Below, one piece after another: positions 268-12,118 of a stretch of DNA of 43,436 bases. Within the stretch, counting starts at the first letter, position 1, and each line of letters starts with the position of its first letter. The DNA lies in IMG/VR virus record IMGVR_UViG_3300042987_002874, positions 1 to 43,436 of that record. One strand, given 5' to 3'. A program made the translations under genes and the position numbers. Under the pieces are notes generated by a model. The model saw nothing but the letters and a program-made list of their open reading frames with translations, was not told where the DNA came from and made no database searches. This stretch comes from a virus.

Positions 268-529
268 CACAAACCCACGCGATCTAATTGAAAGAATGTG
301 CGCATGCTTGCACGGGTGGAGCGTTTTATGGGGACCTGCGGCAAATTCGCCGACCCACATTCTCATTGATGAAGCCCGTCGCTACCTTGCACAGTCTGAG
401 CCCAAGTCGCCTATCCTGAAGGAGAAAGCGTTGGAAGTTCTTCGCCAGCTTGAGAATGGTGCGATTGCCGCAGGTGAACGCGCCGACACCATCCGCCGCG
501 CACTTGAACAACTCCCCGACAATGTCTGA
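260..529 (+). CDS. Small hypothetical protein with a LKEKALEVL...TIRRALEQLPD module
   Basis: An 89-residue protein starting at ATG 260, overlapping the preceding stop by 8 nt. Its C-terminal half (KSPILKEKALEVL, then ADTIRRALEQLPD) matches the C-terminus of the protein at 1914-2252 (PPSLKEQALKMLDD, then YYTIRCALESLPD). The two share a helical module of unknown function that I have the impression is common in Synechococcus phage proteins. It lies between two paralogues of a different family in a tight overlapping series. Longer forms starting upstream would run through the first gene, so 260 is preferred. Confidence 0.65.
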   Translation: MADTNPRDLIERMCACLHGWSVLWGPAANSPTHILIDEARRYLAQSEPKSPILKEKALEVLRQLENGAIAAGERADTIRRALEQLPDNV

Positions 530-716
530 ACTTTCACCTGCCGCACAAGCGGTTTTGGATGCCATCCGAGAAGTGTCCCCTGCACCGGCTGACGAGATTG
601 CCTCCGCCGCCCTGCGAGCTGCTGCGGATCAACTGGGCTATGGCGATGGGAGTGGCGACCCAATCATCAATGAGTATGAGCTTCTCGCCATTGCTGATGA
701 ACTTGAAGCCCAGTAA
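522..716 (+). CDS. Small conserved cyanophage-type protein, paralogue 2
   Basis: A 64-residue protein whose ATG overlaps the preceding stop (ATGTCTGA). It has the same SPAAQAVLDAIRE, AALRAAADQL and ELLAIADELEAQ blocks as the genes at 46 and 731. The middle, between the helices, is variable in sequence and length, as expected for diverging tandem duplicates. The function is unknown, and no cysteine clusters, signal peptide or membrane segment are visible. Confidence 0.7.
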   Translation: MSELSPAAQAVLDAIREVSPAPADEIASAALRAAADQLGYGDGSGDPIINEYELLAIADELEAQ

Positions 717-730
717 CCGCTTCCACTTCT

Positions 731-976
731 ATGCCTGAATTTTCACCACATGCACAAGCAATAAAAGATGCCGTGCTTGCGCTCTACTCTGACGAAAAAG
801 TCCAGAAGTTTGGATGGCGGCTTGATGTACGCACTGTTGCCGCCACACTGCGAGCTGCTGCAGATCTACTGAGTGCAGAAGTAAATGCACCAAAAGTAGA
901 TGGCAGCAAATACAACGGCCTTTGGCATTCTTACGATTTGCTCAATGCCATCGCTGACGAGCTTGAATCTCAGTAG
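731..976 (+). CDS. Small conserved cyanophage-type protein, paralogue 3
   Basis: An 81-residue third copy of the tandem family: FSPHAQAIKDAV at the N-terminus, ATLRAAADLL in the middle and LNAIADELESQ at the end. It is the longest of the three because of a longer linker before the last helix. It ends 3 nt before the stop of a convergent minus-strand gene. The function is unknown. Confidence 0.7.
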   Translation: MPEFSPHAQAIKDAVLALYSDEKVQKFGWRLDVRTVAATLRAAADLLSAEVNAPKVDGSKYNGLWHSYDLLNAIADELESQ

Positions 977-979
977 TCA

Positions 980-1096
980 CTAAAAGGTTGCAGCACTTTG
1001 TTTCTTCAGTTCCGTGACGGCATGCTTGGACTCCACATCCTTGCGTGCCAGCTTCTTTCGTTTGTCCACCAGGTAGACGATCAGTGCTTCGTTCAT
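980..1096 (-). CDS. 38-residue basic peptide, hypothetical
   Basis: A short minus-strand gene that reads MNEALIVYLVDKRKK followed by a charged helix and a stop. It is supported by a good Shine-Dalgarno sequence (GGAGG, about 10 nt upstream of the ATG) and by a 4-nt ATGA overlap with the DUF4278-like gene upstream of it, so the two form a coupled minus-strand pair between two plus-strand gene groups. The function is unknown. Confidence 0.55.
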   Translation of the reverse strand: MNEALIVYLVDKRKKLARKDVESKHAVTELKKQSAATF

Positions 1097-1245
1097 TTGA
1101 ATTGTCCTCCAGTGACGTAAGGAAAGTAGCAGATGTTACGGTAGGTCAGGCAAAGCCATGGACGGTGTGCTAAGTTCCACCATGCCTTGTCTGTCTTGGC
1201 CTGATCCTCTTGGTTGTATTTGCAACCACGATACGTTAACGTCAT
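1093..1245 (-). CDS. DUF4278-like small protein
   Basis: A 50-residue protein with LTYRG-x-x-Y at its N-terminus (MTLTYRGCKY) and a second LTYRN-x-x-Y copy near the C-terminus. The LTYRG..Y motif marks DUF4278, a small family that is widespread in cyanobacteria and of unknown function. I use the ATG at 1245, because the longer reading up to 1404 would add unrelated sequence before the motif. It is translationally coupled by ATGA to the 38-residue gene downstream. The family assignment is by motif only. Confidence 0.6.
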   Translation of the reverse strand: MTLTYRGCKYNQEDQAKTDKAWWNLAHRPWLCLTYRNICYFPYVTGGQFK

Positions 1246-1321
1246 GGCTTTAGTATCTATTGATACGGAAAGTATATGACGATTGATGTATATGATGTCG
1301 TTCACCATGTAACACAACACC

Positions 1322-1585
1322 ATGAACATGCTTGCCTCTTTTAAAATCCCTGTCACTCTTTGTTTAAGTTTTGAACAACAACAAGAAGCTCGAAAAGCAA
1401 TCAATACTTATTACCTCGGCGAAGCTGAGTGTAATTACTTAGATCTAGAAACCATGGGATATCTTCCAAAGCATCCTGAAAAAGAAACGCAAGAGTTTAA
1501 AAACGCTAGCAGGAACGTATCTACTGAATGGATTGAGTATGTAACTGTTGGACTTGACCACAACGGGTGTTTGTCTATCATCTAA
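1322..1585 (+). CDS. Hypothetical protein
   Basis: An 87-residue protein with no recognised domain. It is polar and probably helical (SFEQQQEARKAINTYY). The stop lies 1 nt before the ATG of the next gene, so they are probably co-transcribed. It starts after an AT-rich divergent intergenic stretch (1246-1321) that presumably holds promoters for both directions, but I could not settle on one. Confidence 0.55.
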   Translation: MNMLASFKIPVTLCLSFEQQQEARKAINTYYLGEAECNYLDLETMGYLPKHPEKETQEFKNASRNVSTEWIEYVTVGLDHNGCLSII

Positions 1586-1586
1586 A

Positions 1587-1889
1587 ATGAAAGGATTTAG
1601 TTCAACTCAACAACAAACAAAGTTGGCATTCTATTGGGTTGCGTCCTACACCAAAGACAATGAAGATGAACCCATTGACATTCACAAAAAGATCTTGACT
1701 TATAAACCAGGTCAAGATAAAGATGCCTTGATGACTAAGTACTGTCATTCAATCATGAAGATTAACAAAAACATATGGGAGATCCTGGTGCACCAGGGTC
1801 CATCAGAAGTTCCTGATACTGGTGATCAAATTGTGATCCGTGTATCAAGAGAACCGTTTAAAGGATGTATCCGCATGAACAACAAGTAA
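1587..1889 (+). CDS. Hypothetical protein
   Basis: A 100-residue protein starting at ATG 1587, immediately after the previous stop. It has no recognised motif. The second half (IWEILVHQGPSEVPDTGDQIVIRVS) looks like beta structure. A longer reading from 1548 would overlap the preceding gene and is not preferred. Confidence 0.55.
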   Translation: MKGFSSTQQQTKLAFYWVASYTKDNEDEPIDIHKKILTYKPGQDKDALMTKYCHSIMKINKNIWEILVHQGPSEVPDTGDQIVIRVSREPFKGCIRMNNK

Positions 1890-1913
1890 CTCTACACACT
1901 ACGAGGTTAAACA

Positions 1914-2252
1914 ATGACTCAAGAACACCCGATTACTCCGCCAGAAAAACTAGTAGATCAATGGAACGAAGCTTGGATTGATGCCAAGGTTAAACACGAA
2001 GGACTTGTAACTTTCATTGCTACCCAAGCTGCCCGCTGGGGCGCTGATCAGGAGCTGGAGGCGTGCGTGGAGTGGGCATCTTGTTTCAACTACGACGACT
2101 ACCGCTATGATGAAGTTCTTCGTGACATCCGCCGTAGCCCCGAGCCGCCGAGCTTGAAAGAGCAGGCCCTGAAAATGCTGGATGACGTGGAACGGTTTAC
2201 GGAAGGTGACTACTACACCATTCGTTGCGCTCTTGAATCCCTGCCCGATTAG
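1914..2252 (+). CDS. Small cyanophage-type protein, paralogue of the 260-529 gene
   Basis: A 112-residue protein. The N-terminus reads MTQEHPITPPEKLVDQW, followed by a QAARWGADQELEACVEW segment and the C-terminal LKEQALKMLDD...TIRCALESLPD module shared with the gene at 260. I recognise this architecture as frequent in Synechococcus phages (from memory). The function is unknown. A CGAGG sequence about 10 nt upstream is a possible ribosome-binding site. Confidence 0.75.
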   Translation: MTQEHPITPPEKLVDQWNEAWIDAKVKHEGLVTFIATQAARWGADQELEACVEWASCFNYDDYRYDEVLRDIRRSPEPPSLKEQALKMLDDVERFTEGDYYTIRCALESLPD

Positions 2253-2284
2253 TCCGATCAACTAATCTTCCCGTACAGGAAGAT

Positions 2285-2312
2285 GGACCTGAGCACGTCC
2301 TAAAACTACTCA
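2285..2312 (+). ncRNA. Candidate H-type RNA pseudoknot, copy A
   Basis: One of four matching 28-nt intergenic elements. Stem 1 is GGAC (2285-2288) with GTCC (2297-2300). Stem 2 is TGAGCA (2290-2295) with TACTCA (2307-2312), four outer pairs plus one pair beyond a C-A mismatch. The third loop is TAAAAC (2301-2306). Stem 1 differs from the other three copies (CGTC/GACG) but stays complementary. Segment lengths are identical to the other copies. It lies 35 nt upstream of the GP88-like gene and is the most divergent copy. Confidence 0.55.
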
Positions 2313-2347
2313 TTAATTTTTCTAATCAATCAACTCAACTCAACACC

Positions 2348-3109
2348 ATGAAACTTCTCAAGTTTTCCACAGGTAACGGCAAGCTCAAGAATCGTTTGAT
2401 CTTCAACATTCCAGCGGGCTATGCCTGTCCGCACGCTGGTGTTTGTAAGACCATGGCTGATCGAGTCACCGGCAAGATCATGGATCTACCTCAGTTCACT
2501 GGCACACAAGCAGATGAGTACCGCTGCTTTGCTGCCATGGCAGAGACCAGGTCGACCGTGCGTGAAGCTCGCTGGCACAACTGGGATCTGTTGCGTGAAA
2601 CCATTCACATGAATGGGAACCAGGCCATGCTCCTACGTGATTTGATCGACATGTCCCTGTTGATGCAGCCAGTTAAGAAACTGATTCGCATCCATGAGAG
2701 TGGAGACTTTTGGGCAGAGAACTACATGCGTGCATGGCTCATGGTTGCACAAGAACGTCCCAACCAAACTTTCTATGCTTATACCAAGTCTCTGGGTATG
2801 TGGCTGAACCTTAAGGACATCATCCCATCTAACTTTTATCTCACTGCGTCGCAAGGCGGGACGCTCGACTACCTCATCCCTAAATACCCTGAGGTGTTCC
2901 AGCGCATTGCTTATGTGGTTTACACAGAAGAGGAGGCGCAAGAGCGTGGGCTAGAGATTGATCATGACGACAGCCACTGCCTTGGTGACAAGCCCTTCGC
3001 ACTCTTGGTCCATGGCTCCCAAAGGGCTGGGTCTGCTGCGATGAAAGCTTTGACGCAGCGGAAGAAGGAAGGTCGTTTCATAGGCTACGGTAAATCAAAT
3101 CACAAATAA
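2348..3109 (+). CDS. GP88-like phage protein
   Basis: A 253-residue protein resembling the phage gene product 88 family. It opens LLKFSTGNGKLKNR, has a cysteine-rich ACPHAGVCKTMAD segment and an RCFAAMAE segment, then RIHESGDFWAENYMRAW and TFYAYTKSL, which are the recognisable family blocks. The conserved cysteines suggest metal binding, and the biochemical role is not established to my knowledge. The leader upstream is CA-rich (CAACTCAACTCAACACC) without a Shine-Dalgarno sequence, and it follows pseudoknot copy A. Confidence 0.75.
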   Translation: MKLLKFSTGNGKLKNRLIFNIPAGYACPHAGVCKTMADRVTGKIMDLPQFTGTQADEYRCFAAMAETRSTVREARWHNWDLLRETIHMNGNQAMLLRDLIDMSLLMQPVKKLIRIHESGDFWAENYMRAWLMVAQERPNQTFYAYTKSLGMWLNLKDIIPSNFYLTASQGGTLDYLIPKYPEVFQRIAYVVYTEEEAQERGLEIDHDDSHCLGDKPFALLVHGSQRAGSAAMKALTQRKKEGRFIGYGKSNHK

Positions 3110-3121
3110 ATCTGTAGGGAC

Positions 3122-3149
3122 TTGCGGGTCAGGTGAAATCGGATAGTAT
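3122..3149 (+). promoter_or_regulatory. Possible sigma-70-type promoter
   Basis: TTGCGG (3122-3127) is separated by 16 nt from TAGTAT (3144-3149), a plausible -35/-10 pair upstream of the gene at 3172 and the DNA polymerase. It overlaps a strong nested inverted repeat, which may be the real functional element. Low certainty. Confidence 0.35.
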
Positions 3150-3171
3150 GCATCCGTCTTTTATCTGACCC
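3126..3171 (+). promoter_or_regulatory. Nested hairpin abutting a start codon
   Basis: GGGTCAG (3126-3132) pairs perfectly with CTGACCC (3165-3171), whose last base touches the ATG at 3172. Inside it CGGAT (3140-3144) pairs with ATCCG (3151-3155) around a 7-nt loop. If transcribed, the folded leader would place the start codon directly at the base of a 7-bp stem. This suggests control of translation of the operon containing the DNA polymerase, or an operator if it acts as DNA. Confidence 0.5.
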
Positions 3172-3405
3172 ATGAGTTACATCATTGCTTGTTGGCGGTG
3201 GGGTACACCGCATGCCATCACCGCTAACAAAGAAACCAATCAGTTTGAGTTGATTCCACTAGACTCTGATGTAGCTTTAAACAAGATCTTTTCTCATCCG
3301 TATCGTGCGGGTGCACAACAGATCTTGACGTGGATCAACGACAACGATGAAGACCTTGCCTGTAAAGAACTCTCAATTCAAGATGAGTCCAGATTCCGTA
3401 AGTGA
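3172..3405 (+). CDS. Hypothetical protein upstream of DNA polymerase
   Basis: A 77-residue protein of unknown function starting directly after the nested hairpin. It has no recognised domain. Its 3' end overlaps the polymerase gene by 23 nt (or 59 nt if the polymerase starts at 3347), so the two are translationally linked. Confidence 0.6.
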   Translation: MSYIIACWRWGTPHAITANKETNQFELIPLDSDVALNKIFSHPYRAGAQQILTWINDNDEDLACKELSIQDESRFRK

Positions 3406-5206
3406 CAAGTACTTGGTCTTTGACTTGGAGTCTGATGGGCTTTATGACAAGGTCACCAAAATCCATTGCATTGTCATCCATGACATTACAGCCAACCAAA
3501 CTTCTAGCTATGGGCCTGATTGCATTGCTGATGCTCTTGCTCATTTGGCAACCGCTGATGTTTTGATCGGCCACAACATTTGTTTCTATGACGTACCAGT
3601 TCTGCAAAAACTGCATGCATTTGACTGCAAAGCACGCATCATTGACACACTCATCTGCACACGTTTGATCTGGCCCAAGGAAAAACTCTATGACCTTGAC
3701 GTCGAACAATATCCGCAGGTTCCACCGAACCTACGTGGATCCGCATCGCTTAAGACCTGGGGATGGCGATTGGCCGATCACAAGATCAACTTCAAAGACT
3801 TCTCTGAATATTCTGAAGAGATGCTTGCGTACTGCAAACAGGACGTTGCAGTTACCACAAAACTCTGGGCGCACATCGTTAAGGAACACTATCCAGAACC
3901 AGCTCTCAAGCTGGAACATGACTTTGCTCACGCCATTAACAAACAGATTAGGGCAGGTGTTCCTTTTGATGTGGATGCATGTCTTGATCTCGTGGATGAT
4001 CTACGAGCAAAACAAACACAACTTGAAGCACACTTGAAGGAGATTTTCCCACCACTTGAACACCGCACTTGGTTTACACCCAGGGTTAATAACAAGAGTC
4101 GTGGTTATGTCAAAGGAGTTCCATTTGAAAAAGTACGACTCGAGGAATTCAATCCTGGATCTCGTGACCAGATTGTTAATCGACTTAAGGCAAAGTACGG
4201 ATGGAAACCAGAGAAGACAACTGAGAAAGGAAATCCAATCCTTAATGATGAGGTGTTAGAGCAACTGCCATATCCAGAAGCCAAACCTCTGGCAGAATAC
4301 ATGCTTATCACAAAACGCCTTGGTCAGATTGCAGATGGAAACAATTCTTGGCTCAAGTTGGTTAACAATGATACTGGTCGAATGCACGGTGACGTTGTTA
4401 CTAATGGCTGTATCACTGGCCGTGCTAGTCACAAATACCCAAACATGGGTCAAGTTCCAGCAGGCTATTCGCCATACGGTAAAGAATGTCGTTCTTTGTT
4501 TCATGCACCGCAAGGATGGGACATGATTGGTATTGATGCGAAAGCATTAGAGCTGCGTTGTCTTGCTGGTTACCTTGCCCTATGGGATGGCGGTGAGTAC
4601 GCACGTGTTGTTACTGATCCAGATATTGACATTCATGTATACAACCAAGAGAGGTTTGGTGTGGCGACCAGGGATATCAGCAAGCGTTTGCTGTATGCAG
4701 TGTTGTATGGCGCAGGTCACCTGAAGGCCGGTACTATTGTGGATCCGAATGAAAAAGATGAAGATAAGTTGCGTGAACTAGGAAGAACTGCAATTAATTC
4801 ATTCATGACTGGTGTGCCAGCATTGAAGAAACTGAAGCAGCAGATCGATAGTTACATCACGCATCGTGGGTATCTTATTGGTTTGGATAAACGCATCTTG
4901 TATTGCCGCTCTGCATTCAAAGGATTGAATGTGTTGTTGCAATCAGCGGGTGCAATCCTGATGAAACAAGTTGTTGTGAACATTCATAACAACATTGAGT
5001 CTGCCCTGTCTCTGCCCCATGGGCAGAGTTGGGAACAAGTGTTGATGGTGCATGACGAGGTACAACTTGTCTGTAATCCTCAATACACAGAACGCATCAG
5101 GGACCAGGCCATGCGTGCATTCCCACAAGCACAGAAATTCTTTGGTTTTCAATGCGAGATTGAAGGCGACTCTCGTGTAGGATCCTCATGGGCTGAAACG
5201 CATTGA
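3383..5206 (+). CDS. Family-A (T7-like) DNA polymerase with 3'-5' exonuclease
   Basis: Replicative DNA polymerase. Counting from the alternative ATG at 3347, the exonuclease motif I is FDLESDG (Asp26, Glu28), exo II is LIGHNICFYDVP and exo III is YCKQDVAVTT. The polymerase palm motif A is IDAKALELRCLAG (Asp397), motif B is RDISKRLLYAVLYGAG (Lys446, Tyr450) and motif C is VHDEVQ (His569, Asp570, Glu571). All catalytic residues are present. Tyr450 aligns with T7 Tyr526, the Pol I 762 position. At about 607-619 residues it is shorter than T7 gp5 (704), so the thioredoxin-binding insertion is probably absent (inferred from length). I prefer ATG 3383 because it reduces overlap with the upstream gene, but 3347 cannot be excluded. 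Confidence 0.95.
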   Translation: MSPDSVSDKYLVFDLESDGLYDKVTKIHCIVIHDITANQTSSYGPDCIADALAHLATADVLIGHNICFYDVPVLQKLHAFDCKARIIDTLICTRLIWPKEKLYDLDVEQYPQVPPNLRGSASLKTWGWRLADHKINFKDFSEYSEEMLAYCKQDVAVTTKLWAHIVKEHYPEPALKLEHDFAHAINKQIRAGVPFDVDACLDLVDDLRAKQTQLEAHLKEIFPPLEHRTWFTPRVNNKSRGYVKGVPFEKVRLEEFNPGSRDQIVNRLKAKYGWKPEKTTEKGNPILNDEVLEQLPYPEAKPLAEYMLITKRLGQIADGNNSWLKLVNNDTGRMHGDVVTNGCITGRASHKYPNMGQVPAGYSPYGKECRSLFHAPQGWDMIGIDAKALELRCLAGYLALWDGGEYARVVTDPDIDIHVYNQERFGVATRDISKRLLYAVLYGAGHLKAGTIVDPNEKDEDKLRELGRTAINSFMTGVPALKKLKQQIDSYITHRGYLIGLDKRILYCRSAFKGLNVLLQSAGAILMKQVVVNIHNNIESALSLPHGQSWEQVLMVHDEVQLVCNPQYTERIRDQAMRAFPQAQKFFGFQCEIEGDSRVGSSWAETH

Positions 5207-5211
5207 TTACG

Positions 5212-5239
5212 CGTCCTAGGTATGACGTTAAACTGCCTT
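5212..5239 (+). ncRNA. Candidate H-type RNA pseudoknot, copy B (upstream of SSB gene)
   Basis: Stem 1 is CGTC (5212-5215) with GACG (5224-5227). Stem 2 is AGGTA (5218-5222) with TGCCT (5234-5238), including one G-U pair. The third loop is TTAAAC (5228-5233). Single-nucleotide junctions C5216 and T5223 match the other copies. The element begins 6 nt after the polymerase stop and ends 20 nt before the SSB start codon. T4 gene 32 mRNA likewise carries a 5' pseudoknot bound by its own SSB, so autogenous control is a reasonable hypothesis. Confidence 0.6.
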
Positions 5240-5259
5240 AACACTTCACATCTGATCTC

Positions 5260-6075
5260 ATGAATTACGTTGACGTTTGCGCCATCCTTAACGAGAAGCC
5301 TCGTGAGGTATACACCAGTGCAACTTCATCTAATCTCTGTGCGGAAGTCATGCTTCCGCCTGTTGGTAACAAAGCTCCTACACTCCTGACATTCCATGTT
5401 TACGGGAAAGCCTGCGACAAATTCAAAGAGTTTGACAAAGGAAGCCGTATCTATATTCACGGCGCCAAGCTACGGTTTGATCTCGAATCAAAGGCGTACT
5501 CGCTCCATGGAGGAGTTATTGCTCAAGTTACTGAAGCATTCCCTGTCCTCAACGATGTGATCTTGACGGGACGTTGCATCAAAGACATTGATCAAACAGA
5601 TGCACGTGCCTTCAAGACAACGGCAGATGGTTTGATGATTGCTAATCAAACAATCTCTGTTAACACAGGACGCAACCAAGCTGATCTGTTTAACTTCTAT
5701 GCCATCAATACGGCACAAGATAAGTTAAACCAAGCGGAACTTCTTGTTAACTTTACGCGTAAAGGAACTGGCATCACCATCCGTGGTCGACTGGTGACCG
5801 ACGCATGGACGGACAAGGAGTCCCAGCAGCGCCGCAGTATCACCAAGATTCAGTTGGTGCAGATGACCTTGGCTCCCAAGAGCGGTGAGTCTCAACCGAA
5901 ATCTGTGGCATCCCAGACAACCGTGGCATCCACCGATAACGTTGCTAGCCTATGGGGAGGCAAAACCGTTGAGGAATCAACGGATCCTTGGACCCAAACC
6001 TCAGGTGGTGGCCTGCCTGACCTCCCTGGTCAGTACGGCAGCACACCCAACTTTGATGATGAACCTCCCTTCTAA
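5260..6075 (+). CDS. Single-stranded DNA-binding protein with two OB folds
   Basis: A 271-residue protein. Residues about 1-95 and about 97-205 each read as an OB fold: a first beta-barrel ending SLHGGVIAQVTEAF, then a second starting VILTGRCIKDIDQTD and ending RSITKIQLVQMTL. A flexible Gly/Ser/Thr-rich tail follows and ends in FDDEPPF, which resembles the acidic C-terminal tip of bacterial SSB (DDDIPF) that recruits partner proteins. It follows DNA polymerase, fitting a replisome role. The start codon lacks a Shine-Dalgarno sequence and is preceded by pseudoknot copy B. Assignment rests on the fold pattern and the tail. Confidence 0.7.
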   Translation: MNYVDVCAILNEKPREVYTSATSSNLCAEVMLPPVGNKAPTLLTFHVYGKACDKFKEFDKGSRIYIHGAKLRFDLESKAYSLHGGVIAQVTEAFPVLNDVILTGRCIKDIDQTDARAFKTTADGLMIANQTISVNTGRNQADLFNFYAINTAQDKLNQAELLVNFTRKGTGITIRGRLVTDAWTDKESQQRRSITKIQLVQMTLAPKSGESQPKSVASQTTVASTDNVASLWGGKTVEESTDPWTQTSGGGLPDLPGQYGSTPNFDDEPPF

Positions 6076-6079
6076 TCCA

Positions 6080-6310
6080 ATGACACTTCAACTTGATTTT
6101 AAAAACTCAGATCTTCTTTCTTTAGAAGACGCTATTGCCTACGAATTCTTCATGGAAAGTGTGGGCCAAACAATGAACAGTGCCCATGAAAATGAAATGG
6201 ACATTATGGAAGCACTTGTAAAACTTGCAAAGGCTTCTTACATGGTTGCAAGCATTTTTTGTGAAGCACGTTCACTTTACTCACAACAAGATAATGACAG
6301 CAACACATGA
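6080..6310 (+). CDS. Hypothetical protein
   Basis: A 76-residue helical, acidic protein starting 4 nt after the SSB stop. It has no recognised domain. The pattern (LEDAIAYEFFMESVGQTMN, IMEALVKLAKASYMVASIF) suggests two amphipathic helices. Its 3' end overlaps the next gene by 17 nt. Confidence 0.6.
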   Translation: MTLQLDFKNSDLLSLEDAIAYEFFMESVGQTMNSAHENEMDIMEALVKLAKASYMVASIFCEARSLYSQQDNDSNT

Positions 6311-6533
6311 TCAGTTTACTCTCCTCTACGAGGATGAGCACACCAAACTTCTTTATGAATTCAAAGCACTTGTTGCTGATGATGTAATCAACCACCTTGT
6401 GGATTTCCTCAAGGGTTGTGGGTACATGGAAAGCAGTATCTTTGAATGCATGAAGGAATCCTCTGAGGCGTATTTCGATTCATTAAGTACCCAGCAGTAC
6501 GTGATGAAATGGGACAAGCCTGATCCAGAATAA
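6294..6533 (+). CDS. Hypothetical protein
   Basis: A 79-residue acidic, helical protein of unknown function. ATG 6294 is chosen because it is the first start compatible with a short overlap with the upstream gene. It ends 6 nt before pseudoknot copy C. Confidence 0.6.
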   Translation: MTATHDQFTLLYEDEHTKLLYEFKALVADDVINHLVDFLKGCGYMESSIFECMKESSEAYFDSLSTQQYVMKWDKPDPE

Positions 6534-6538
6534 GGATC

Positions 6539-6566
6539 CGTCCTGAGCATGACGTTAAACTGCTCA
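6539..6566 (+). ncRNA. Candidate H-type RNA pseudoknot, copy C
   Basis: The clearest copy. Stem 1 is CGTC (6539-6542) with GACG (6551-6554). Stem 2 is a perfect 6-bp TGAGCA (6544-6549) with TGCTCA (6561-6566). The third loop is TTAAAC (6555-6560), with single-nucleotide junctions C6543 and T6550. It starts 6 nt after the preceding stop and ends 20 nt before ATG 6587. Confidence 0.65.
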
Positions 6567-6586
6567 TTCCCGACTACGAAACAACC

Positions 6587-7603
6587 ATGACCTCTTCCAT
6601 GACCACCAAGAAAACTTCTGCGCTTGCATCCAGGGGACTTGATTCCTTCAAGCTTTTTCAAGCTAAAGAGTTTGTTTCTGGGTACCAGAACCTTGTCACA
6701 ATTCAACCTCTCAATAAGTCCAAGACACGAGGTTGGTTCGTGCGGAAGTCAGATCTGGACACTTGCGGATGGAGTGCCACTGAAGATCAGTTTGCTGAAG
6801 GTTCAGTTATCTGGAACTACAAGCAAACTTTTGGTATGGCTCCCAACACTTCAATTGAAGAAGGACTCAATTTTGTTGAGCCTCGAGTTCAAATCCTTTT
6901 ACGTTCTCCCCTCATGGTTGAGGAAACCACAGGGATGAGGCAAACGATTGGCACCTTTGATGATCCAGAGGTAAAGGCCATGTTTGAAAACGACAAGGTT
7001 GCATCTGATCTTGCTAACAGCAAAGGTGAGATGTACAAGCGTAAGTACAGTGTACGCACCAAGTACCTGGTGTACATTCTGACTCAGGACAACAAGCGTG
7101 CTCATAAGATCCCGATGGTGCTTACACTCAAAGGATTGAACGGTACCGACGTTTCCGATAAGGTCAAGTTGTATGAAAAGGAAATGTCCAAGTGCCTGAG
7201 CAAAGCACTGGACTCCGAAGTGCCTCTGGCATTCAACGAAAAGTTTTATGCCACCACGGTGTTTATCCCCGTGCTTGCCAATGAGATGCGCGGTGCCAAC
7301 AACGTTGAGATCTGCGCAATCGAATCCTTTGAGATTCCTGATTACAGCTCCCAGGAAGATGCGGTTGCATCATTGGGTCGTCTTTCGATTCCTGATGAAG
7401 ATCGTGAATCAACTTGGAAGTACCAAGAGATGTTTGAAGATTACATCAATCAACATTCTCGCCAAGATGCGCAGCGTCTTGGTGGTGCTTATGGAATCAA
7501 AGATGGCGTACAGATTCTTCCCGTCTCACGTACCACAGATGCAGTTGATGTGAAAGCATTGCCTGCACGTGATGAGATGACTGGAGAAGATCTCAGCCTT
7601 TGA
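6587..7603 (+). CDS. DUF5895-like protein, probably replication or recombination associated
   Basis: A 338-residue soluble protein. Its layout (an early YQNLVTIQPLNKSKTRGWFVRKSDL block, a GSVIWNYKQTFG block, a long middle with RKYSVRTKYLVYILTQDNKRAHKIPMVL, and a C-terminus ending MTGEDLSL) recalls DUF5895, a family seen in cyanobacterial plasmids and phages. The match is from memory and tentative. Its place after SSB and behind the same type of leader element suggests a DNA metabolism role. A second Met at 6602 is an alternative start. The stop overlaps the convergent gene at 7593 by 11 nt. Confidence 0.5.
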   Translation: MTSSMTTKKTSALASRGLDSFKLFQAKEFVSGYQNLVTIQPLNKSKTRGWFVRKSDLDTCGWSATEDQFAEGSVIWNYKQTFGMAPNTSIEEGLNFVEPRVQILLRSPLMVEETTGMRQTIGTFDDPEVKAMFENDKVASDLANSKGEMYKRKYSVRTKYLVYILTQDNKRAHKIPMVLTLKGLNGTDVSDKVKLYEKEMSKCLSKALDSEVPLAFNEKFYATTVFIPVLANEMRGANNVEICAIESFEIPDYSSQEDAVASLGRLSIPDEDRESTWKYQEMFEDYINQHSRQDAQRLGGAYGIKDGVQILPVSRTTDAVDVKALPARDEMTGEDLSL

Positions 7604-7814
7604 GTCGGTTGAGGATGTCACGGTCAACTTGATTACTCATCAAGTCCATGGCATCCTTTACTAATCCTTTGATAGCAACCTGACGCATCGTGGCAATCTT
7701 CGTTAAGAGGGTTGCCATTTCTTTTAACTCACTAATCGAATTACATTCGTTAATGGACCGTATCATCTTCTCTTGCCAGAAGGCTTCTTCTGGACCCATT
7801 TCAAACTTCAACAT
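7593..7814 (-). CDS. Small conserved helical protein
   Basis: A 73-residue protein beginning MLKFEMGPEEAFWQEKMIRSI, then ELKEMATLLTKIATMRQVAIKG. I recall near-identical short proteins in cyanobacteria and cyanophages, but no function. ATG 7814 is chosen over a TTG at 7832. It converges on the preceding gene with an 11-nt overlap. CTACT...AGTAG (7839-7854) forms a small inverted repeat in its upstream region. Confidence 0.6.
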   Translation of the reverse strand: MLKFEMGPEEAFWQEKMIRSINECNSISELKEMATLLTKIATMRQVAIKGLVKDAMDLMSNQVDRDILNRLKG

Positions 7815-7894
7815 GGGATTTAAATGTTTCAAAGTATTCTACTTGCAACAGTAGACTTGACTTAAAGTTTCCATTTGTGTTAAGGATTCCACAC

Positions 7895-8086
7895 ATGAAA
7901 CCAGAAAAGAAAGCTGCTATTAAAGTGGGTGGTACCACGGCACTGGTCACTGGTGCCCTGGCGCTACTTTTACCATCTCCCGCAGCCTGGGCTGCCGTGA
8001 TCTATGGATCGTATAGGATGGCTAAGGGGGCGTACCAGAAAGCCAAGGAGGACCAGGCCCAACAGGACTACTGGCGCAACCACTAA
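7895..8086 (+). CDS. Small membrane-associated protein
   Basis: A 63-residue protein. A lysine-rich N-terminus (MKPEKKAAIKVGG) is followed by a hydrophobic stretch (TALVTGALALLLPSPAAWAAVIYG) that is long enough to span the membrane, then a charged tail (KAKEDQAQQDYWRNH). An AAGGA sequence about 10 nt upstream supports ATG 7895. The function is unknown, and a cell-envelope or lysis accessory role is possible. Confidence 0.55.
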   Translation: MKPEKKAAIKVGGTTALVTGALALLLPSPAAWAAVIYGSYRMAKGAYQKAKEDQAQQDYWRNH

Positions 8087-8104
8087 TTCAACTCAATCCA
8101 ACTC

Positions 8105-9046
8105 ATGTCAACTCAAACCCAGCTCGAACTCAACGCGGCGCAAGCAGCGATCTACACGCGGTCAAACATCCGGCGTGCGTTCCAAGATTTTGATGACACT
8201 GAAGTCGCCGGCATTTATCTGCGAGATGATGATTGCCTTGTGGTGCGTCGCGATGGTAGCGAGCAGACTTACAACAGGGAACTAATCAAGGTTGCCTTTA
8301 CCAACTACACTCACCGTCTCAAAGATTTCTTTTCCTATCTTGGCTCTAACTATCGTGGCCCTAGTGTATGGCACAACAATGCTTACATTCTTTTTAAGGG
8401 CTGGAACTACACGCACGCACTCGGACACCTGACATCGAATGCAAAACTCCAGGCGCATTGGGCTGACAAATTTATACATGTATCAGACACCAACAAAGTC
8501 CTCCACCTTCTCCAGTCTGACCAAACGGATCTTGGACATCTGGTTGCACCAGACGGATTGCGGCTTCCGAATCGGCCCATTGACCTTGACAGCGACATGG
8601 AAGCTGACCAGTCCACACCTGTCGTGGGTGAACCTTGGTGTTCGTGTGGGTCGTATCAGCGTCAGCTCAGCAACGTATCTGACTTTGCGTCCGAGATCCA
8701 AGGATTCAAGCCCTGGTGCATCCACCTGAGCTGGTTCAACAAGTACCGTGAGCTGCTGTGCAAACGCACTGAAGCACGGAATGCTAGTCCCAGTGGTACA
8801 CCTGAGAAGTGTGTGGCCTGGTGGTATGCACCGCCGGTTGATCACATCAGTGATGGTCGCTTCGTATTGTTGTATACCAACTCAGGAGCACAGGCTCCAT
8901 TGACCCATTGGCGTACCTACAAGCCTAAGGATGTATTTACACAACATGATGCATGGGATTTGTTCTTTAATATGTGTGATGTAGGTTATGTGCCTTTTCC
9001 AGGGGTAGCACTTCCTCAGTTAAAGTCAGCCATTAAAAAACAATGA
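8105..9046 (+). CDS. SWIM zinc-finger-type protein; 3' end remade by a homing element
   Basis: A 313-residue protein with a C-x-C...C-x-H arrangement at Cys179, Cys181, Cys205 and His207 (WCSCGSYQRQL, then KPWCIHLSW), the SWIM metal-binding pattern used for nucleic-acid or protein contacts. No catalytic domain is recognised. The last 20 residues (GYVPFPGVALPQLKSAIKKQ) recur at the end of the next gene with nearly every codon changed. This suggests that the present 3' end arrived with the inserted endonuclease gene. The stop overlaps the next ATG (ATGA). Confidence 0.6.
   Translation: MSTQTQLELNAAQAAIYTRSNIRRAFQDFDDTEVAGIYLRDDDCLVVRRDGSEQTYNRELIKVAFTNYTHRLKDFFSYLGSNYRGPSVWHNNAYILFKGWNYTHALGHLTSNAKLQAHWADKFIHVSDTNKVLHLLQSDQTDLGHLVAPDGLRLPNRPIDLDSDMEADQSTPVVGEPWCSCGSYQRQLSNVSDFASEIQGFKPWCIHLSWFNKYRELLCKRTEARNASPSGTPEKCVAWWYAPPVDHISDGRFVLLYTNSGAQAPLTHWRTYKPKDVFTQHDAWDLFFNMCDVGYVPFPGVALPQLKSAIKKQ
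8984..9046 (+). repeat. Recoded duplicate of a gene 3' end, copy 1
   Basis: Encodes GYVPFPGVALPQLKSAIKKQ plus stop. Copy 2 lies at 9589-9651. Of the 20 residues, 18 are identical, yet almost every codon differs at the third base, and the two flank the HNH/AP2 gene. See copy 2 and the finding on the homing element. Confidence 0.85.
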
Positions 9047-9651
9047 CAAAACCAAAACCTCTTCCTCCGTTAAATGAACTTAAAGAAGTCCTAATGATCT
9101 GTGACACTTCCCCGAGTAATCTTCGTTGGATCAAACCAAGAACAAACAGGATTAAACCAGGTGATCCTGCGGGTACTCTTTGTAAAGATGGGTACTACAA
9201 CGTTGGATTAAAAGACGGATCTTTAAAAGGGTATTCGTACTACAAAGCTCATCGTATTGTGTATTACCTTCAAACAGGAATAGATCCTGGATTTTCTTTG
9301 ATCGATCATGTTGAAAACATGAGAGGTTTAGATAGCAAAATTCGTCTTGCAAACAAAAAACAGAATGCTCAGAATTGTAACCCGTATAAACGAAATAATC
9401 AATCAAGTAATTATAAAGGTGTCTCTTGGCATAAACGACAAAAGAAGTGGCTTGCTAATATTACTGTGAACTCAAAACGAATGCATTTAGGTTCTTTTGA
9501 TACAGAAATAGAGGCTGCCCAAAAATACAATGAAGCAGCCCTTGCATTCTTTGGAGAATTTGCTAGGCTAAACAATCTTCAAGAGGCTGGCTACGTTCCA
9601 TTCCCTGGTACTGCATTGCCACAACTCAAGTCTGCTCTTAAGAAGCAATGA
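9043..9651 (+). CDS. HNH homing endonuclease with AP2 DNA-binding domain, fused to a relic C-terminus
   Basis: A 202-residue protein. Residues about 60-115 carry the HNH_3-type pattern (AHRIVYYLQTGIDPG, LIDHVENMRG, IRLANKKQNAQN). Residues about 123-178 form an AP2 domain (NYKGVSWHKRQKKWLANI, HLGSFDTEIEAAQKYNEAA). This HNH-AP2 combination is typical of phage homing endonucleases, which cut an empty target site and copy themselves in by repair. The final 20 residues are not part of either domain and duplicate the end of the upstream SWIM-type protein, so they are probably the original target gene's C-terminus captured in frame. The gene is more AT-rich than its neighbours, a sign of transfer. 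Confidence 0.88.
   Translation: MTKPKPLPPLNELKEVLMICDTSPSNLRWIKPRTNRIKPGDPAGTLCKDGYYNVGLKDGSLKGYSYYKAHRIVYYLQTGIDPGFSLIDHVENMRGLDSKIRLANKKQNAQNCNPYKRNNQSSNYKGVSWHKRQKKWLANITVNSKRMHLGSFDTEIEAAQKYNEAALAFFGEFARLNNLQEAGYVPFPGTALPQLKSALKKQ
9589..9651 (+). repeat. Duplicate of a gene 3' end, copy 2 (probable original)
   Basis: Encodes GYVPFPGTALPQLKSALKKQ plus stop at the end of the endonuclease gene. Its codon use (GGC TAC, CTC AAG, AAG AAG) resembles the surrounding phage genes, while copy 1 at 8984-9046 uses A/T-ending codons like the endonuclease. Copy 2 is therefore the likelier native tail. Confidence 0.8.
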
Positions 9652-9899
9652 CATTTCAAATCAGTGATGGTATTGCATACCTGGGCACTCAATGTCCCAG
9701 TACAACACTTACGATTGAACCCACAAATCCTATGCAACTGAACAACGGCAAGTACACCATGCATCTAGAGGTTGATGAGGAAACTTATTGGGGGCTTGTT
9801 AAGCTTGGTGCAGAAATTAAAACCGACTCTGAAACCTATGCAGAAAACATCCTCTTGGGCCATGTGCAATCCGAACTCGATCGAGAAGCTGCAGATTAA
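9648..9899 (+). CDS. Hypothetical protein
   Basis: An 83-residue acidic protein of unknown function starting with an ATGA overlap on the preceding stop. It probably followed the SWIM-type gene directly before the endonuclease gene arrived. Confidence 0.55.
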   Translation: MTFQISDGIAYLGTQCPSTTLTIEPTNPMQLNNGKYTMHLEVDEETYWGLVKLGAEIKTDSETYAENILLGHVQSELDREAAD

Positions 9900-9924
9900 C
9901 TGCATTGAGGAAGAGGATGGTTCC

Positions 9925-10053
9925 ATGACCATTCACATTGAATGGGATGAAAACCATCCTGATCTCCAGTGGTGGACTAACCTTGGTCCAGAAGGCCAAG
10001 AAACCTTTATGATTGATGCACTCCGACAAGCTTTGGATTGTTATGTCGATTGA
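9925..10053 (+). CDS. Short acidic peptide, hypothetical
   Basis: A 42-residue peptide starting MTIHIEWDENHPDLQWW. The ATG at 9925 has a purine-rich GAGGAAGAGG stretch 6-15 nt upstream that would serve as a ribosome-binding site. The reading frame also extends upstream into the previous gene, where it looks non-coding. It overlaps the next gene by 11 nt. Function unknown. Confidence 0.45.
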   Translation: MTIHIEWDENHPDLQWWTNLGPEGQETFMIDALRQALDCYVD

Positions 10054-10348
10054 GACCTACGGACTTCCCTCTGAACAATATGTGAAGAACTTCACATATA
10101 ATGTCAGGTTTGCTGCCAGGCTTTATCTTGATACCTGCAACATTCTTTCAGCCGAAGGTGCTGGCAATGTTGATTTCAAAACAGTACTTGACATGTATCA
10201 AGAAGCTGTCTATGCAACTAACGATGATTGCCGGAGGTATCAAAAAGCCAACAACCCTGAAGCCATCAAGGATACTGATCTCTTAGGTATCTATCCTTCC
10301 AGGGGGGGAGATGATGGAAGAGATCAAGGCTGTCAGCGCCAAGGTTGA
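10043..10348 (+). CDS. Hypothetical protein ending beyond a seven-G run
   Basis: A 101-residue protein starting MSIETYGLPSEQYVKNF. Up to about residue 86 (DLLGIYPS) it looks like an ordinary helical protein. After a run of seven G (10302-10308) the frame yields a low-complexity tail (RGGDDGRDQGCQRQG), whereas a +1 frame continues as a plausible helical peptide (10311-10430). Frameshifted expression or an upstream ribosome-binding site for the next gene are both possible. Confidence 0.6.
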   Translation: MSIETYGLPSEQYVKNFTYNVRFAARLYLDTCNILSAEGAGNVDFKTVLDMYQEAVYATNDDCRRYQKANNPEAIKDTDLLGIYPSRGGDDGRDQGCQRQG

Positions 10349-10430
10349 AGCTCTTACTGATTACGTCACAGAGCTGGTCAAGGTCACAACCAGGGGTCTT
10401 GAAGGCATTGCCGAAAACCTGGTAGACTAA
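10311..10430 (+). CDS. Short helical peptide overlapping the preceding gene
   Basis: A 39-residue reading frame, MMEEIKAVSAKVEALTDYV followed by ELVKVTTRGLEGIAENLVD, with heptad-like spacing of hydrophobic residues that suggests a short coiled coil. The seven-G run with GGAG directly upstream of ATG 10311 would be a very close Shine-Dalgarno sequence. It could be an independent gene or the frameshifted C-terminus of the gene at 10043. Confidence 0.5.
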   Translation: MMEEIKAVSAKVEALTDYVTELVKVTTRGLEGIAENLVD

Positions 10431-10465
10431 TCACGCCTGCAATAGCGGGTATAGCCCTGAGAGGC

Positions 10466-10493
10466 CGTCCTGGTCATGACGTAAAACTGACCA
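10466..10493 (+). ncRNA. Candidate H-type RNA pseudoknot, copy D
   Basis: Stem 1 is CGTC (10466-10469) with GACG (10478-10481). Stem 2 is a perfect 6-bp TGGTCA (10471-10476) with TGACCA (10488-10493). The third loop is TAAAAC (10482-10487), with single-nucleotide junctions C10470 and T10477. Stem 2 differs from copy C at two positions on each strand with both pairings kept, which is direct covariation. It ends 19 nt before ATG 10513. Confidence 0.65.
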
Positions 10494-10512
10494 CCCATCT
10501 CAATACCACACC

Positions 10513-10626
10513 ATGTTTGAATCGTTGTTTGCCGCCGTACTTCCGGTGATGAAAGATCTTCTTTGGGCAGCAGCAGGTATGCTGCTGACCTATGCCATCA
10601 ACAAAATTCAAACTCAATTCAACTGA
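10513..10626 (+). CDS. 37-residue single-span membrane peptide
   Basis: Reads MFESLFAAVLPVMKDLLWAA, then AGMLLTYAINK and a short polar tail. One predicted transmembrane helix spans most of the peptide. Placed behind pseudoknot copy D and 2 nt before the Gp157-like gene. It could be a small membrane effector or holin-like peptide, and no family is recognised. Confidence 0.5.
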   Translation: MFESLFAAVLPVMKDLLWAAAGMLLTYAINKIQTQFN

Positions 10627-10628
10627 TC

Positions 10629-11342
10629 ATGACCCAACTCACTCAAGCTAAACTCAAAGACCTTAACGTCTTAAAACTCTACGAGCACTATGATGCTCTC
10701 GAAAAGTCTCTGCCTCTTCTCACTCCTGAGTCCCAGGAACTGGCTAAAGCTGAGCTGGAAGCATGTGCCAATCTCCGTTCAGAAAAGATTGATCGCATTT
10801 ATTACGCCATTGCGTCCCATGAGGATGCCTTGGAGCGCATCAAGAAAGAAGGAGAGCACATCACTCAAGCCAAACGTCACCACGAATCCCAACTGCGATC
10901 ACTCAAGGGTCTGTTAAATTATCTACGTCGTGTCCTCCCCATGGACTCGAACAAGATCACCGGTCGCAATTACCAGTTCACCCTTGTTAAAAAGAAAGAA
11001 CTTACAGTCGAGGTCTCATCGGACCCGGAGTTTTGGCACACTACAGAAAGAGAACTTTATTGCATTGAGGAAACAGTCACCACAACCAAGCGAGTTGTAT
11101 TACGATCAATGTCAGGAGAAGTTCTTGACGAAAGAACAGAACCTAAAACAACCACTAAAGTCCTCCCTAACCTCGATGCCATACGCAGCGCCTATCAAGA
11201 AGGTCGGCAACTTCCAACAGGAGTCAAAGTCATCCAGGAATATTCCGTCCGTTCCAAACGAATCTTCTCAGAACCACGAGTGGACTTGGTACCATCCGAG
11301 TATCCAGCAGAGCTTCTACGAGAAGATTCCAGCGCCGATTGA
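10629..11342 (+). CDS. Siphovirus Gp157-like protein
   Basis: A 237-residue protein matching the layout of the phage Gp157 family: an N-terminal region starting LKLYEHYDALEKSL, a long helical central part with regularly spaced charged residues (KIDRIYYAIASHEDALERIK), an LKGLLNYLRRVLPMDSNKI segment, then NYQFTLVKKKELTVEV, the beta segment that follows in this family. The molecular role is poorly known. ATG 10629 is preferred over an in-frame start at 10563, which would lie inside the membrane peptide gene. Confidence 0.7.
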   Translation: MTQLTQAKLKDLNVLKLYEHYDALEKSLPLLTPESQELAKAELEACANLRSEKIDRIYYAIASHEDALERIKKEGEHITQAKRHHESQLRSLKGLLNYLRRVLPMDSNKITGRNYQFTLVKKKELTVEVSSDPEFWHTTERELYCIEETVTTTKRVVLRSMSGEVLDERTEPKTTTKVLPNLDAIRSAYQEGRQLPTGVKVIQEYSVRSKRIFSEPRVDLVPSEYPAELLREDSSAD

Positions 11343-11364
11343 TAGTGATGACGCTCGTATCAAA

Positions 11365-11589
11365 ATGAGCTGTCATGAGCATGCCATCAAAGACTTTGAT
11401 CTCCAACTGGAAATGAATGGTCTACAACTGGACATGCTTAAAGAGAACGGTGAGGTTGTTCCTTACCACGTAGAAGAGTACGGCGATCTTGAGGAAAAGA
11501 AACTCAAGCTCCTCGTTGGTAAACGGTTTCACCAGAATGCATCCAACGCATATTGGTATTACCTCCAGCGGGAGAAAGCTGCTAAGTAA
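11365..11589 (+). CDS. Hypothetical protein
   Basis: A 74-residue charged protein starting MSCHEHAIKDFDLQLEMNG at ATG 11365, 22 nt after the preceding stop. The first half is likely a coiled-coil helix. The frame is open further upstream but overlaps the Gp157-like gene, so the shorter form is chosen. Function unknown. Confidence 0.5.
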   Translation: MSCHEHAIKDFDLQLEMNGLQLDMLKENGEVVPYHVEEYGDLEEKKLKLLVGKRFHQNASNAYWYYLQREKAAK

Positions 11590-11623
11590 ATGCCAGTACA
11601 ATAAGTAAAGCAGTAGGGGTCCC

Positions 11624-11887
11624 ATGGGCGGTGATTCAGTTCTCAATAAGTTGATTGCTGGGTTTACCCAAGATGGGACTCCTCTTTCAGCAACTATTGG
11701 TTCCAAGATGGAGCATGGTGTTGTCATCTTGACAGCAGCCATGCTTGCCAATGAAAACCTTGCATCTTCTATGGATGCAGAAGAAATGGTTGATGCTGCT
11801 ATCAATTACTACAATTTGATTCAACAACGTCTTGGTTACTACCAAGAGCATCAGGCACATTCTTTAGAAAGACTGCTAGGAAATTAA
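11624..11887 (+). CDS. Hypothetical protein
   Basis: An 87-residue protein preceded by AGTAGGGG, a possible ribosome-binding site. It is helical (MEHGVVILTAAMLANENLAS, VDAAINYYNLIQQRL) with no recognised family. Confidence 0.55.
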   Translation: MGGDSVLNKLIAGFTQDGTPLSATIGSKMEHGVVILTAAMLANENLASSMDAEEMVDAAINYYNLIQQRLGYYQEHQAHSLERLLGN

Positions 11888-11923
11888 ATTCCTGCTAAGG
11901 TAAGCAAGTCTTTACTCCTAGAG

Positions 11924-12118
11924 ATGGAACCTATCTCCGTGCCAAAACTCACTGTCTCTTTTGCAGTTGATGTTGAGGTTGAATACAATTCCTTTGGCGG
12001 TAAGACCGCTGATGAAATTGGAGAAGCATTACAAGATGAACTCCATGACCTTCTCTTTGAGCTAGAACAGGTCACTGGTGTCTATACTACCTGCACGTCC
12101 ATTACCTCTTATGACTGA
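11924..12118 (+). CDS. Hypothetical protein
   Basis: A 64-residue acidic protein with a beta-rich start (LTVSFAVDVEVEYNSFGGK) followed by a helix (ADEIGEALQDELHDLLFEL). Its stop overlaps the next start (ATGACTGA). Function unknown. Confidence 0.55.
   Translation: MEPISVPKLTVSFAVDVEVEYNSFGGKTADEIGEALQDELHDLLFELEQVTGVYTTCTSITSYD

Follow-up and report, generated by a model that had tools for sequence, protein, structure and literature searches.

The mRNA of T-even gene 32 carries a compact H-type pseudoknot with a 1-nt loop 1 upstream of the SSB gene; there is one copy per genome, and it serves in autoregulation by gp32. ToxI and the phage pseudo-ToxI RNAs, antitoxins of type III toxin-antitoxin systems of phages and plasmids, consist of short H-type pseudoknots in tandem arrays that are processed by the cognate toxin. 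The upstream pseudoknot domain of the tobamovirus 3' UTR and the REP-type 3' stabilisers lie just past a stop codon and stabilise the mRNA or raise expression. The STAXI motif (RF01728) is a pseudoknot motif of phages and plasmids whose function is unknown, often found near genes for SSB, integrase and other DNA-handling proteins (PMC2864571). Hammerhead ribozymes flanking prophage genes have been proposed to process long transcripts into short, gene-length mRNAs (PMC3088659), and pistol RNAs, which are phage-associated and have a stem loop that forms a pseudoknot, need three stems and ten conserved catalytic nucleotides (PMC4604425).

We have analysed a stretch of viral DNA of 43,436 nucleotides (the window) in which four 28-nt elements recall these systems in part. 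With the gene 32 mRNA they share the compact H-type form, the 1-nt loop 1, the location in phage mRNA and the context of an SSB gene; with ToxI-type RNAs, similar lengths of loops 2 and 3; with STAXI, a phage-associated pseudoknot motif that has SSB among its neighbours; and with pistol RNAs, phage association and the presence of a pseudoknot. The 28-nt module is absent from Rfam 15, and no description of it was found in the literature searched, where queries by motif sequence or by description returned nothing relevant. At the curated gathering scores Rfam 15 matched only a tRNA in the whole window, and a permissive scan of positions 1–12000 (E ≤ 10) gave no match over the four elements, so that the Rfam search proposed in an earlier note on this DNA yields no family for them. 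At related loci a tRNA, a hammerhead, a DUF2800 RNA or a tmRNA was recognised beside the knot and the knot itself was never matched.

The four elements lie on the plus strand and have in common a 4-1-6-1-4-6-6 H-type pseudoknot architecture, at the coordinates and with the segmentation that the earlier note had given. Copy 1 (2285..2312; GGAC-C-TGAGCA-C-GTCC-TAAAAC-TACTCA) precedes by 35 nt the start of the GP88 gene (2348..3109, plus strand; PF17338, E 1.3e-40). Copy 2 (5212..5239; CGTC-C-TAGGTA-T-GACG-TTAAAC-TGCCTT) stands between a family A DNA polymerase gene (3347..5206, plus strand; PF00476) and the SSB gene (5260..6075, plus strand; PF00436), which starts 20 nt on. Copy 3 (6539..6566; CGTC-C-TGAGCA-T-GACG-TTAAAC-TGCTCA) follows an ORF with no Pfam match (6225..6533, plus strand) and is 20 nt from the start of the DUF5895 gene (6587..7603, plus strand; PF19247). 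Copy 4 (10466..10493; CGTC-C-TGGTCA-T-GACG-TAAAAC-TGACCA) is 19 nt from the start of a small membrane-type peptide (10513..10626, plus strand) recognised by reading the sequence. These distances to the start codons agree with those of the earlier note. Stem 1 is paired at 4/4 positions in each copy, as GGAC/GTCC in copy 1 and CGTC/GACG in copies 2–4, and the loop T(T/A)AAAC is present in all four. Stem 2 is fully paired (6/6) in copies 3 and 4 and at 5/6 in the other two, with one C.A mismatch in copy 1 and, in copy 2, a terminal T.T mismatch together with one G.U pair. The window contains the sequence core three times, where dinucleotide shuffles predict 0.01. A fifth candidate, at 26857–26884, pairs acceptably but is without the invariant C of loop 1 and falls within a large inverted repeat, and was rejected.

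On the upstream side, the gap between stop codon and knot is exactly 5 nt for copy 2 (5206 to 5212) and copy 3 (6533 to 6539). For copies 1 and 4 the gaps are longer (32 and 35 nt) and are occupied by predicted hairpins, namely a 7-bp hairpin immediately 5' of copy 1 (2265..2284, plus strand; ATCTTCC-CGTACA-GGAAGAT; fold z = -2.44) and hairpins between the upstream stop (10428–10430) and copy 4 (10435..10465, plus strand; MFE -11.4 kcal/mol, z = -1.31). Homologues lack the latter hairpins and have a spacer of 5 nt. The 5-nt spacing of copies 2 and 3 had been missed in the earlier note.

Pattern scans in which one stem was left unconstrained detected the element in hundreds of viral contigs; the 4.1 Mb of loci contain 561 distinct copies and the reversed control 6. 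The further copies sought in other phages are therefore many, in related and unrelated phages alike; phages with relatives of the element infect cyanobacteria, actinobacteria, Firmicutes and Paracoccus, and bacterial metagenome assemblies also contain it. Several knots are found per genome, adjoining many unrelated genes, and a second knot is occasionally present 20–60 nt further on, which does not amount to an array. The family consensus is NNNC-C-TGAGYA-W-GNNN-NTAAAC-TRCTCA, with variants allowed by pairing. As regards the bacterial matches, tmRNA pseudoknots were rejected as their origin, ARAGORN having found none in 113 loci, and Omnitrophota and deltaproteobacterial matches in genome contigs were discarded as look-alikes because they are the 3' ends of coding sequences (..HCKEGC..LSWARR*) before an Rrf2-type gene, often with stem 1 at only 3/4.

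The earlier note had read the elements as copies of a conserved pseudoknot in RNA whose two interleaved stems covary, and an alignment of 69 distinct copies together with pattern-blind sampling bears this out. In the alignment 96.1% of the paired cells are compatible with pairing, compared with 75.4% after shuffling and 22–42% in slid registers, and the covariation score of 0.574 (0.189 in the control) was reached in 0/500 shuffles. Two-sided changes are seen in both helices, at 3/4 pairs of stem 1 and 4/6 pairs of stem 2. Pattern-blind sampling gave 28 distinct stem-1 helices, the inner pairs of which are complementary in 99–100% of cases where ~48% is expected. In the isolate S-EIV1, a Synechococcus phage with 6 copies, orthologous sites checked for stems broken without compensation show compensated changes: the copy 1 ortholog has TGTC/GACA and CAAGCA/TGCTTG, a two-sided compensation in both stems, and the copy 4 ortholog has AGTC/GACT in stem 1. 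Interleaved helices kept by compensatory change are what is expected of an H-type RNA pseudoknot, and it is, on this comparative evidence, almost certain that all four elements are members of a single family of cis-acting H-type RNA pseudoknots, 28 nt long, in dsDNA phages of several bacterial phyla.

The tightest constraint on the placement of the knot is on its upstream side, where it usually lies 5–6 nt past a stop codon and never less than 4. An upstream gene could be identified for 480 copies; the distance to its stop codon is 5 nt in 109 of these and 6 nt in 53, and none has 0–3 nt; in a random control 64/1995 positions are within 12 nt of a stop. Annotated CDS ends agree (5 and 5 nt in S-EIV1, 6 in Molivia, 6 in the M. 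smegmatis phage Labelle, 6 in ParMal1 and 4 in the Lactobacillus phage phig1e). Longer stop-to-knot spacers are in general enriched in hairpins. The largest family of upstream genes (DUF932-like, 67 copies) has stop distances of mostly 5–13 nt, and what lies downstream varies: tRNA genes in some copies, T-runs or a distant start codon in others. Where a start codon is the next downstream feature, it is at least 17 nt from the knot. A minority of copies, 88/476 in viral contigs and including the GP88-type site, are anchored to a start codon and have no stop close by, and 123 show no clear anchor. From these distances the knot is shown to be placed in untranslated mRNA, flush against but outside the predicted ribosome footprints.

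Downstream, a site of RNA cleavage, either the 5' end of a tRNA or a hammerhead ribozyme, is often found 2–13 nt from the knot. The 5' ends of tRNAs lie 3–13 nt 3' of it in 43 cases, against 0.94 expected within 60 nt, although these are not independent events because most (tRNA-Asp) come from related phages; the reverse order, tRNA then knot, was seen in only 2 cases. Five hammerhead cores lie immediately 3' of a knot, one of them identified as Hammerhead_3 by Rfam, and the same kind of core search over all 4.06 Mb found 5. The tail of the knot (+1 to +6) is nearly free of G, and T-runs of at least five just 3' of the knot are enriched 6- to 17-fold; a T5 or longer within 16 nt is present in 8–12% of copies and absent from most.

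We tentatively propose, giving this somewhat less than an even chance of being correct, that the knot serves as a boundary element in mRNA and either protects phage messages at their ends or marks those ends. Because of its spacing to stop and start codons and its tRNA and hammerhead neighbours, we place it outside ribosome-covered RNA and often beside a cleavage site. The knot would keep its fold during translation of the cistrons on either side and would block exonucleases. A polycistronic transcript would be cut just behind it by RNase P, by a hammerhead or by a host endonuclease in the G-poor tail, and the upstream mRNA would then end in the knot as its 3'-terminal cap; a start-anchored copy may just as well protect the downstream message on its 5' side. 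The covariation, the stop anchoring, the proximity of cleavage sites, the DUF932-like cluster, the composition of the tail and the hairpin-filled spacers are in its favour, as is the processing of long transcripts proposed for prophage hammerheads (PMC3088659). Against it count the start-anchored and unanchored copies given above, those led by a promoter-like TATAAT in an apparent pure 5' UTR, the rarity of convergent operon ends behind knots (7 candidates) and intrinsic terminators that are not enriched downstream (11/267 vs 97/1080). The last two observations led us to reject the knot as purely the 3' end of transcription units. The conservation of knot sequence beyond what pairing demands also counts against it, since it suggests a specific partner rather than a mere plug. 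The broader proposition, that these are a hitherto unrecognised, phylum-crossing class of phage mRNA boundary pseudoknots which either cap processed ends or engage a host machine shared by all bacteria (ribosome, RNA polymerase or degradosome), we regard as evenly balanced.

The earlier note had taken the elements for 5'-UTR regulators of the downstream genes, and had suggested that a single regulator could co-ordinate the GP88, SSB, DUF5895 and membrane-peptide genes. The idea that the knot controls translation or mRNA level of the gene that follows, perhaps through a phage protein that binds to it, such as SSB, or by docking ribosomes on leaders without a Shine-Dalgarno sequence, gains from the tight start distances in several cyanophage families (18–21 nt for SSB; mostly 19–35 nt for GP88, where the stop distance is variable), from the promoter-like boxes 5' of some copies and from a site conserved before scaffold or capsid genes in Firmicutes phages and phage-like plasmids. 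As a general rule it is rather unlikely: it leaves unexplained both the 5–6 nt stop spacing and the tens of copies trailed by tRNAs or ribozymes, the large upstream-gene family has no constant downstream gene, and downstream genes are unrelated between phages. The claim stands in part, for the start-anchored minority, in which the knot may have a role for the downstream gene.

Knots that promote frameshifting and readthrough typically have a spacer of 5–6 nt. The same spacing here, with its hard lower limit at 4 nt, is what would be expected if the knot met the ribosome at the mRNA entry with the stop codon in the A site, altering termination, recycling, readthrough or post-termination sliding and reinitiation. 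Yet the distribution of spacings is tailed and hairpins can occupy the gap, and start-anchored copies are distant from any stop, which makes such a role improbable. Readthrough is itself unlikely because the stops before the knot are mixed (TAA 104, TGA 45, TAG 39), have no codon context and are followed by in-frame extensions no longer than those in other frames; a readthrough or frameshift pseudoknot, for which a specific stop context or a slippery site and an open downstream frame would be expected, was rejected.

A transcriptional element, with the newly made knot touching RNA polymerase (for pausing or for antitermination of the put type) or forming with a U-tract a pseudoknot-type terminator, would fit a knot that is indifferent to position within untranslated RNA, is conserved in sequence across phyla and has T-runs enriched just behind it. 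It is distinctly improbable, given the terminator counts, the lack of a T-run in most copies and transcription that clearly runs on into tRNAs and ribozymes 2–13 nt further. That the palindromes are a DNA-level site (operator, promoter or recombination signal) merely resembling an RNA knot is highly improbable, for although the copy in the phiJB record is labelled a putative promoter (P5R), the interleaved stems covary while the sequence of stem 1 is otherwise free, same-strand stop codons set the placement and no promoter motif lies at a fixed distance upstream.

Hundreds of phage genomes from several bacterial phyla thus carry one 28-nt module with two-stem covariation and nucleotide-precise stop spacing. 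If the knot is an mRNA end cap, it would give phages a simple, transferable way to define and stabilise single messages within long transcripts, the cuts being made by ribozymes and at tRNAs, and could be built into synthetic operons as a small stabilising element. Should the knot act on the ribosome or RNA polymerase instead, it would offer a new and universal point of access to a host machine. In both cases it is a recognisable feature with which to annotate phage intergenic regions.

The differences from the described systems are clear. Unlike the pistol ribozyme, the element ends after the pseudoknot and has no Rfam match. Type III toxin-antitoxin RNAs are processed arrays, whereas the knots are dispersed singletons with no toxin gene, array or Rfam match recognised, and their neighbours are genes for replication, capsid, DUF932-like proteins and tRNA. 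The gp32 system has a single knot in the SSB mRNA; here there are several copies per genome with unrelated genes on both sides, and the SSB protein is of the common OB-fold type (PF00436). The STAXI motif, 153 positions long, strings two or three pseudoknots with UUCG loops together in tandem, and the knot is a single 28-mer with a TAAAC loop 3, no UUCG and ties to stop and start codons; the STAXI covariance model (cut-off 40.5 bits) reached at best 14.7 bits in related records and gave no hit in the window or S-EIV1. The tobamovirus and REP elements are unrelated to it in sequence and host and offer a functional parallel by analogy only. With the prophage hammerheads it shares an intergenic position in phage RNA next to genes of no constant identity, and in 5 cases a hammerhead stands directly behind it; the knot, which lacks a catalytic core and occurs far more often, would mark the boundary rather than cut it.

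The four elements at 2285–2312, 5212–5239, 6539–6566 and 10466–10493 (+) in the window, taken in the earlier note for copies of one 28-nt H-type RNA pseudoknot (hereafter the knot), were found again on re-checking at exactly these positions and with the same 4-1-6-1-4-6-6 segmentation (stem 1, loop 1, stem 2, loop 2, stem 1 partner, loop 3, stem 2 partner). The core CGTCCTNNNNATGACGTWAAACT is present at three places in the window, where dinucleotide-preserving shuffles give an expectation of 0.01; the stem 1 variant GGAC/GTCC is that of copy 1. Rfam gave no match at the four elements, whether gathering scores or permissive settings were used.

The fold was tested blind to the pattern, using scans that fixed one stem and left the other free. 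In the first IMG/VR scan stem 1 and the loops were fixed and four stem 2 positions and their partners were free; at least 119 stretches matched, and among the 149 matches listed stem 2 was paired at 6/6 positions in 106 and at 5/6 in 32. The second and third scans fixed stem 2 and freed stem 1. The two inner pairs of stem 1 that were left free were paired in 99–100% of 117 distinct 28-mers (~48% expected), and 28 different stem 1 helices were present. An alignment of 69 distinct sequences had standard pairs in 96.1% of cells (75.4% shuffled) and a covariation score of 0.574 (0.189 shuffled), which none of 500 shuffles reached; sliding the partner by 1–3 columns lowered pairing to 22–42%. A descriptor scan of 4.06 Mb of loci returned 561 distinct elements, compared with 6 when the sequence was reversed; the 561 are not a census since the loci were picked for carrying the pattern. 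Among unpaired positions, the loop 1 C and the loop 3 AAAC are invariant or nearly so; loop 2 can be T, A or C, and loop 3 is 6 nt long in 420/448 elements and 5–9 nt in the remainder.

The nearest annotated relative, the isolated Synechococcus phage S-EIV1, carries six copies at orthologous sites. Stem 1 is TGTC/GACA at its GP88 site (GGAC/GTCC in the window) and AGTC/GACT at its membrane-peptide site (CGTC/GACG in the window). From the stem-free scans, the covariation and these compensated sites, the conserved pseudoknot proposed earlier therefore stands: relatives do hold copies, and stem changes are compensated.

Knots are found in IMG/VR contigs and in deposited phages of Arthrobacter, Mycobacterium, Nostoc, Microcystis, Synechococcus, Lactobacillus, Streptococcus and Paracoccus, as well as in phage-like plasmid regions and in bacterial assemblies; the neighbours in the latter, where recognisable, are phage genes. 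Many matches in Omnitrophota and deltaproteobacteria were coding look-alikes and were discarded. Staphylococcal phietaviruses have a weaker form with only 4/6 stem 2 pairs; a copy of this strength in the staphylococcal phage phiJB (21444–21484; L348 1493–1533) lies in a region annotated 'putative promoter P5R'. Multiple knots per contig are common, with two or more on 103 viral contigs and a maximum of eight, and in some phages the first knot is followed 20–60 nt later by another that is often degenerate (L064, L153, L192, L246, L256, L378). Three assemblies contain the element as a CRISPR spacer (L213, L235 and L182, with all or most of the knot); that is, hosts target it.

Distance to the upstream stop codon was measured for the 480 copies that an ORF precedes on the same strand. 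Of these gaps, 109 are 5 nt, 53 are 6 nt, 279 are at most 11 nt and none is 0–3 nt; in an earlier, smaller set, 64/1995 random positions lay within 12 nt. Annotated CDS ends give gaps of 5 and 5 nt in S-EIV1, 6 in Molivia, 6 in Labelle, 4 in phig1e and 6 in ParMal1. Longer spacers tend to hold a hairpin (mean z −1.04), as at window copies 1 and 4. Among the protein families encoded upstream, the largest (67 copies, ~338 aa, DUF932-like by resemblance) has stop distances of mostly 5–13 nt and a variable downstream neighbour: 37 copies have tRNA-Asp, -Glu or -Asn there and 19 have a T-run (some have both), and the remainder have a start codon 19–244 nt from the knot.

Downstream, the start codon is at least 17 nt away, with 9 exceptions among 452 viral copies, and distances peak at 19–22 and 27–28 nt. 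A tRNA 5′ end lies 3–13 nt behind 43 copies (0.94 expected within 60 nt), the reverse order being seen in only two; an example with annotation is Arthrobacter phage Molivia, where the SSB stop codon is 6 nt before the knot and the tRNA-Gly gene 2 nt behind it. The window's own tRNA-Pro (TGG) gene, 17336–17411 (−), has no knot before it. Five copies have a hammerhead core directly behind the knot, one of them Rfam Hammerhead_3, with cuts predicted (by eye) 5–12 nt behind it; a similar search for cores turned up just five in 4 Mb of loci. Type III hammerheads stand directly behind the knot, mostly before the ribosome binding site, at L129 7541–7620 (−), L240, L359 and L403. At L223 the DUF2800 RNA (RF02960; 1346–1530, −) starts at the nucleotide directly after the knot, and L160 and L189 are similar in appearance; the motif in Rfam may therefore be a composite that includes the knot. 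Directly behind the knot, six nucleotides are almost G-free and T-runs are enriched 6- to 17-fold. Perfect GGGGCCCC-type palindromes follow 10–30 nt behind it in phage contigs L022, L037, L045, L069, L104 and L118.

Placement is not purely 3′. Classed by anchor, the 476 viral copies comprise 251 at a stop codon, 88 at a start codon only, 14 beside a tRNA or ribozyme only and 123 that have no obvious anchor. In GP88-type and a few other families the start distance is tight and the stop distance variable; in Firmicutes phages the knot lies between minor capsid and scaffold genes. One phage group has the order promoter-like TATAAT, hairpin leader, knot, ribosome binding site. At L249, L287, L332, L388 and L437 the TATAAT box and the knot are separated by a further structured leader with two hairpins, GTTAC and AGGAT, which has no Rfam match. 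Intrinsic terminators show no enrichment behind the knot. One rival reading has the knot regulate translation of the gene behind it. A second rival is a ribosome-facing element; readthrough at the stop codons is unlikely because the stops are mixed, have no codon context and are followed by in-frame extensions no more open than other frames. The third rival is an RNA-polymerase-contacting element.

What the placements share is a position at which neither a terminating nor an initiating ribosome ever has to melt the knot, with almost no naked RNA left between the knot and the ribosome-covered part; often the knot also stands just before a transcript cut site. We have established its fold, family and placement, and the reading with the best support is that of a general boundary element of mRNAs. 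A constitutively folded knot would block exonucleases, and a cut behind it by RNase P, hammerhead or another nuclease would leave it at the 3′ terminus of the upstream message; knots anchored to a start codon may protect the message behind them. Both the exonuclease blocking and the transcript processing are inferred.

Two other features of the window were noted. A large imperfect inverted repeat, possibly an att or replication structure, occupies 26756–26961 (+) in the gap between ORFs ending at 26679 and starting at 27048 (61-nt arms 26780–26840 and 26900–26960, 77% complementary, plus 12-nt outer arms). An AP2-domain protein (PF00847; 9043–9651, +), probably a homing-endonuclease-like ORF, has a similar DNA stretch 18 kb away at 27236–27280.

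The family is absent from Rfam 15 and is not STAXI, a candidate identity that we rejected; no description was found in the open literature, subscription papers and preprints being outside the search. Its breadth and stop-codon spacing, like the family itself, appear to be new, while compact cis-acting phage pseudoknots are already known as a kind. The boundary-element reading fits with the proposal that phage hammerheads cut long transcripts into gene-length mRNAs (Perreault et al., PMC3088659).
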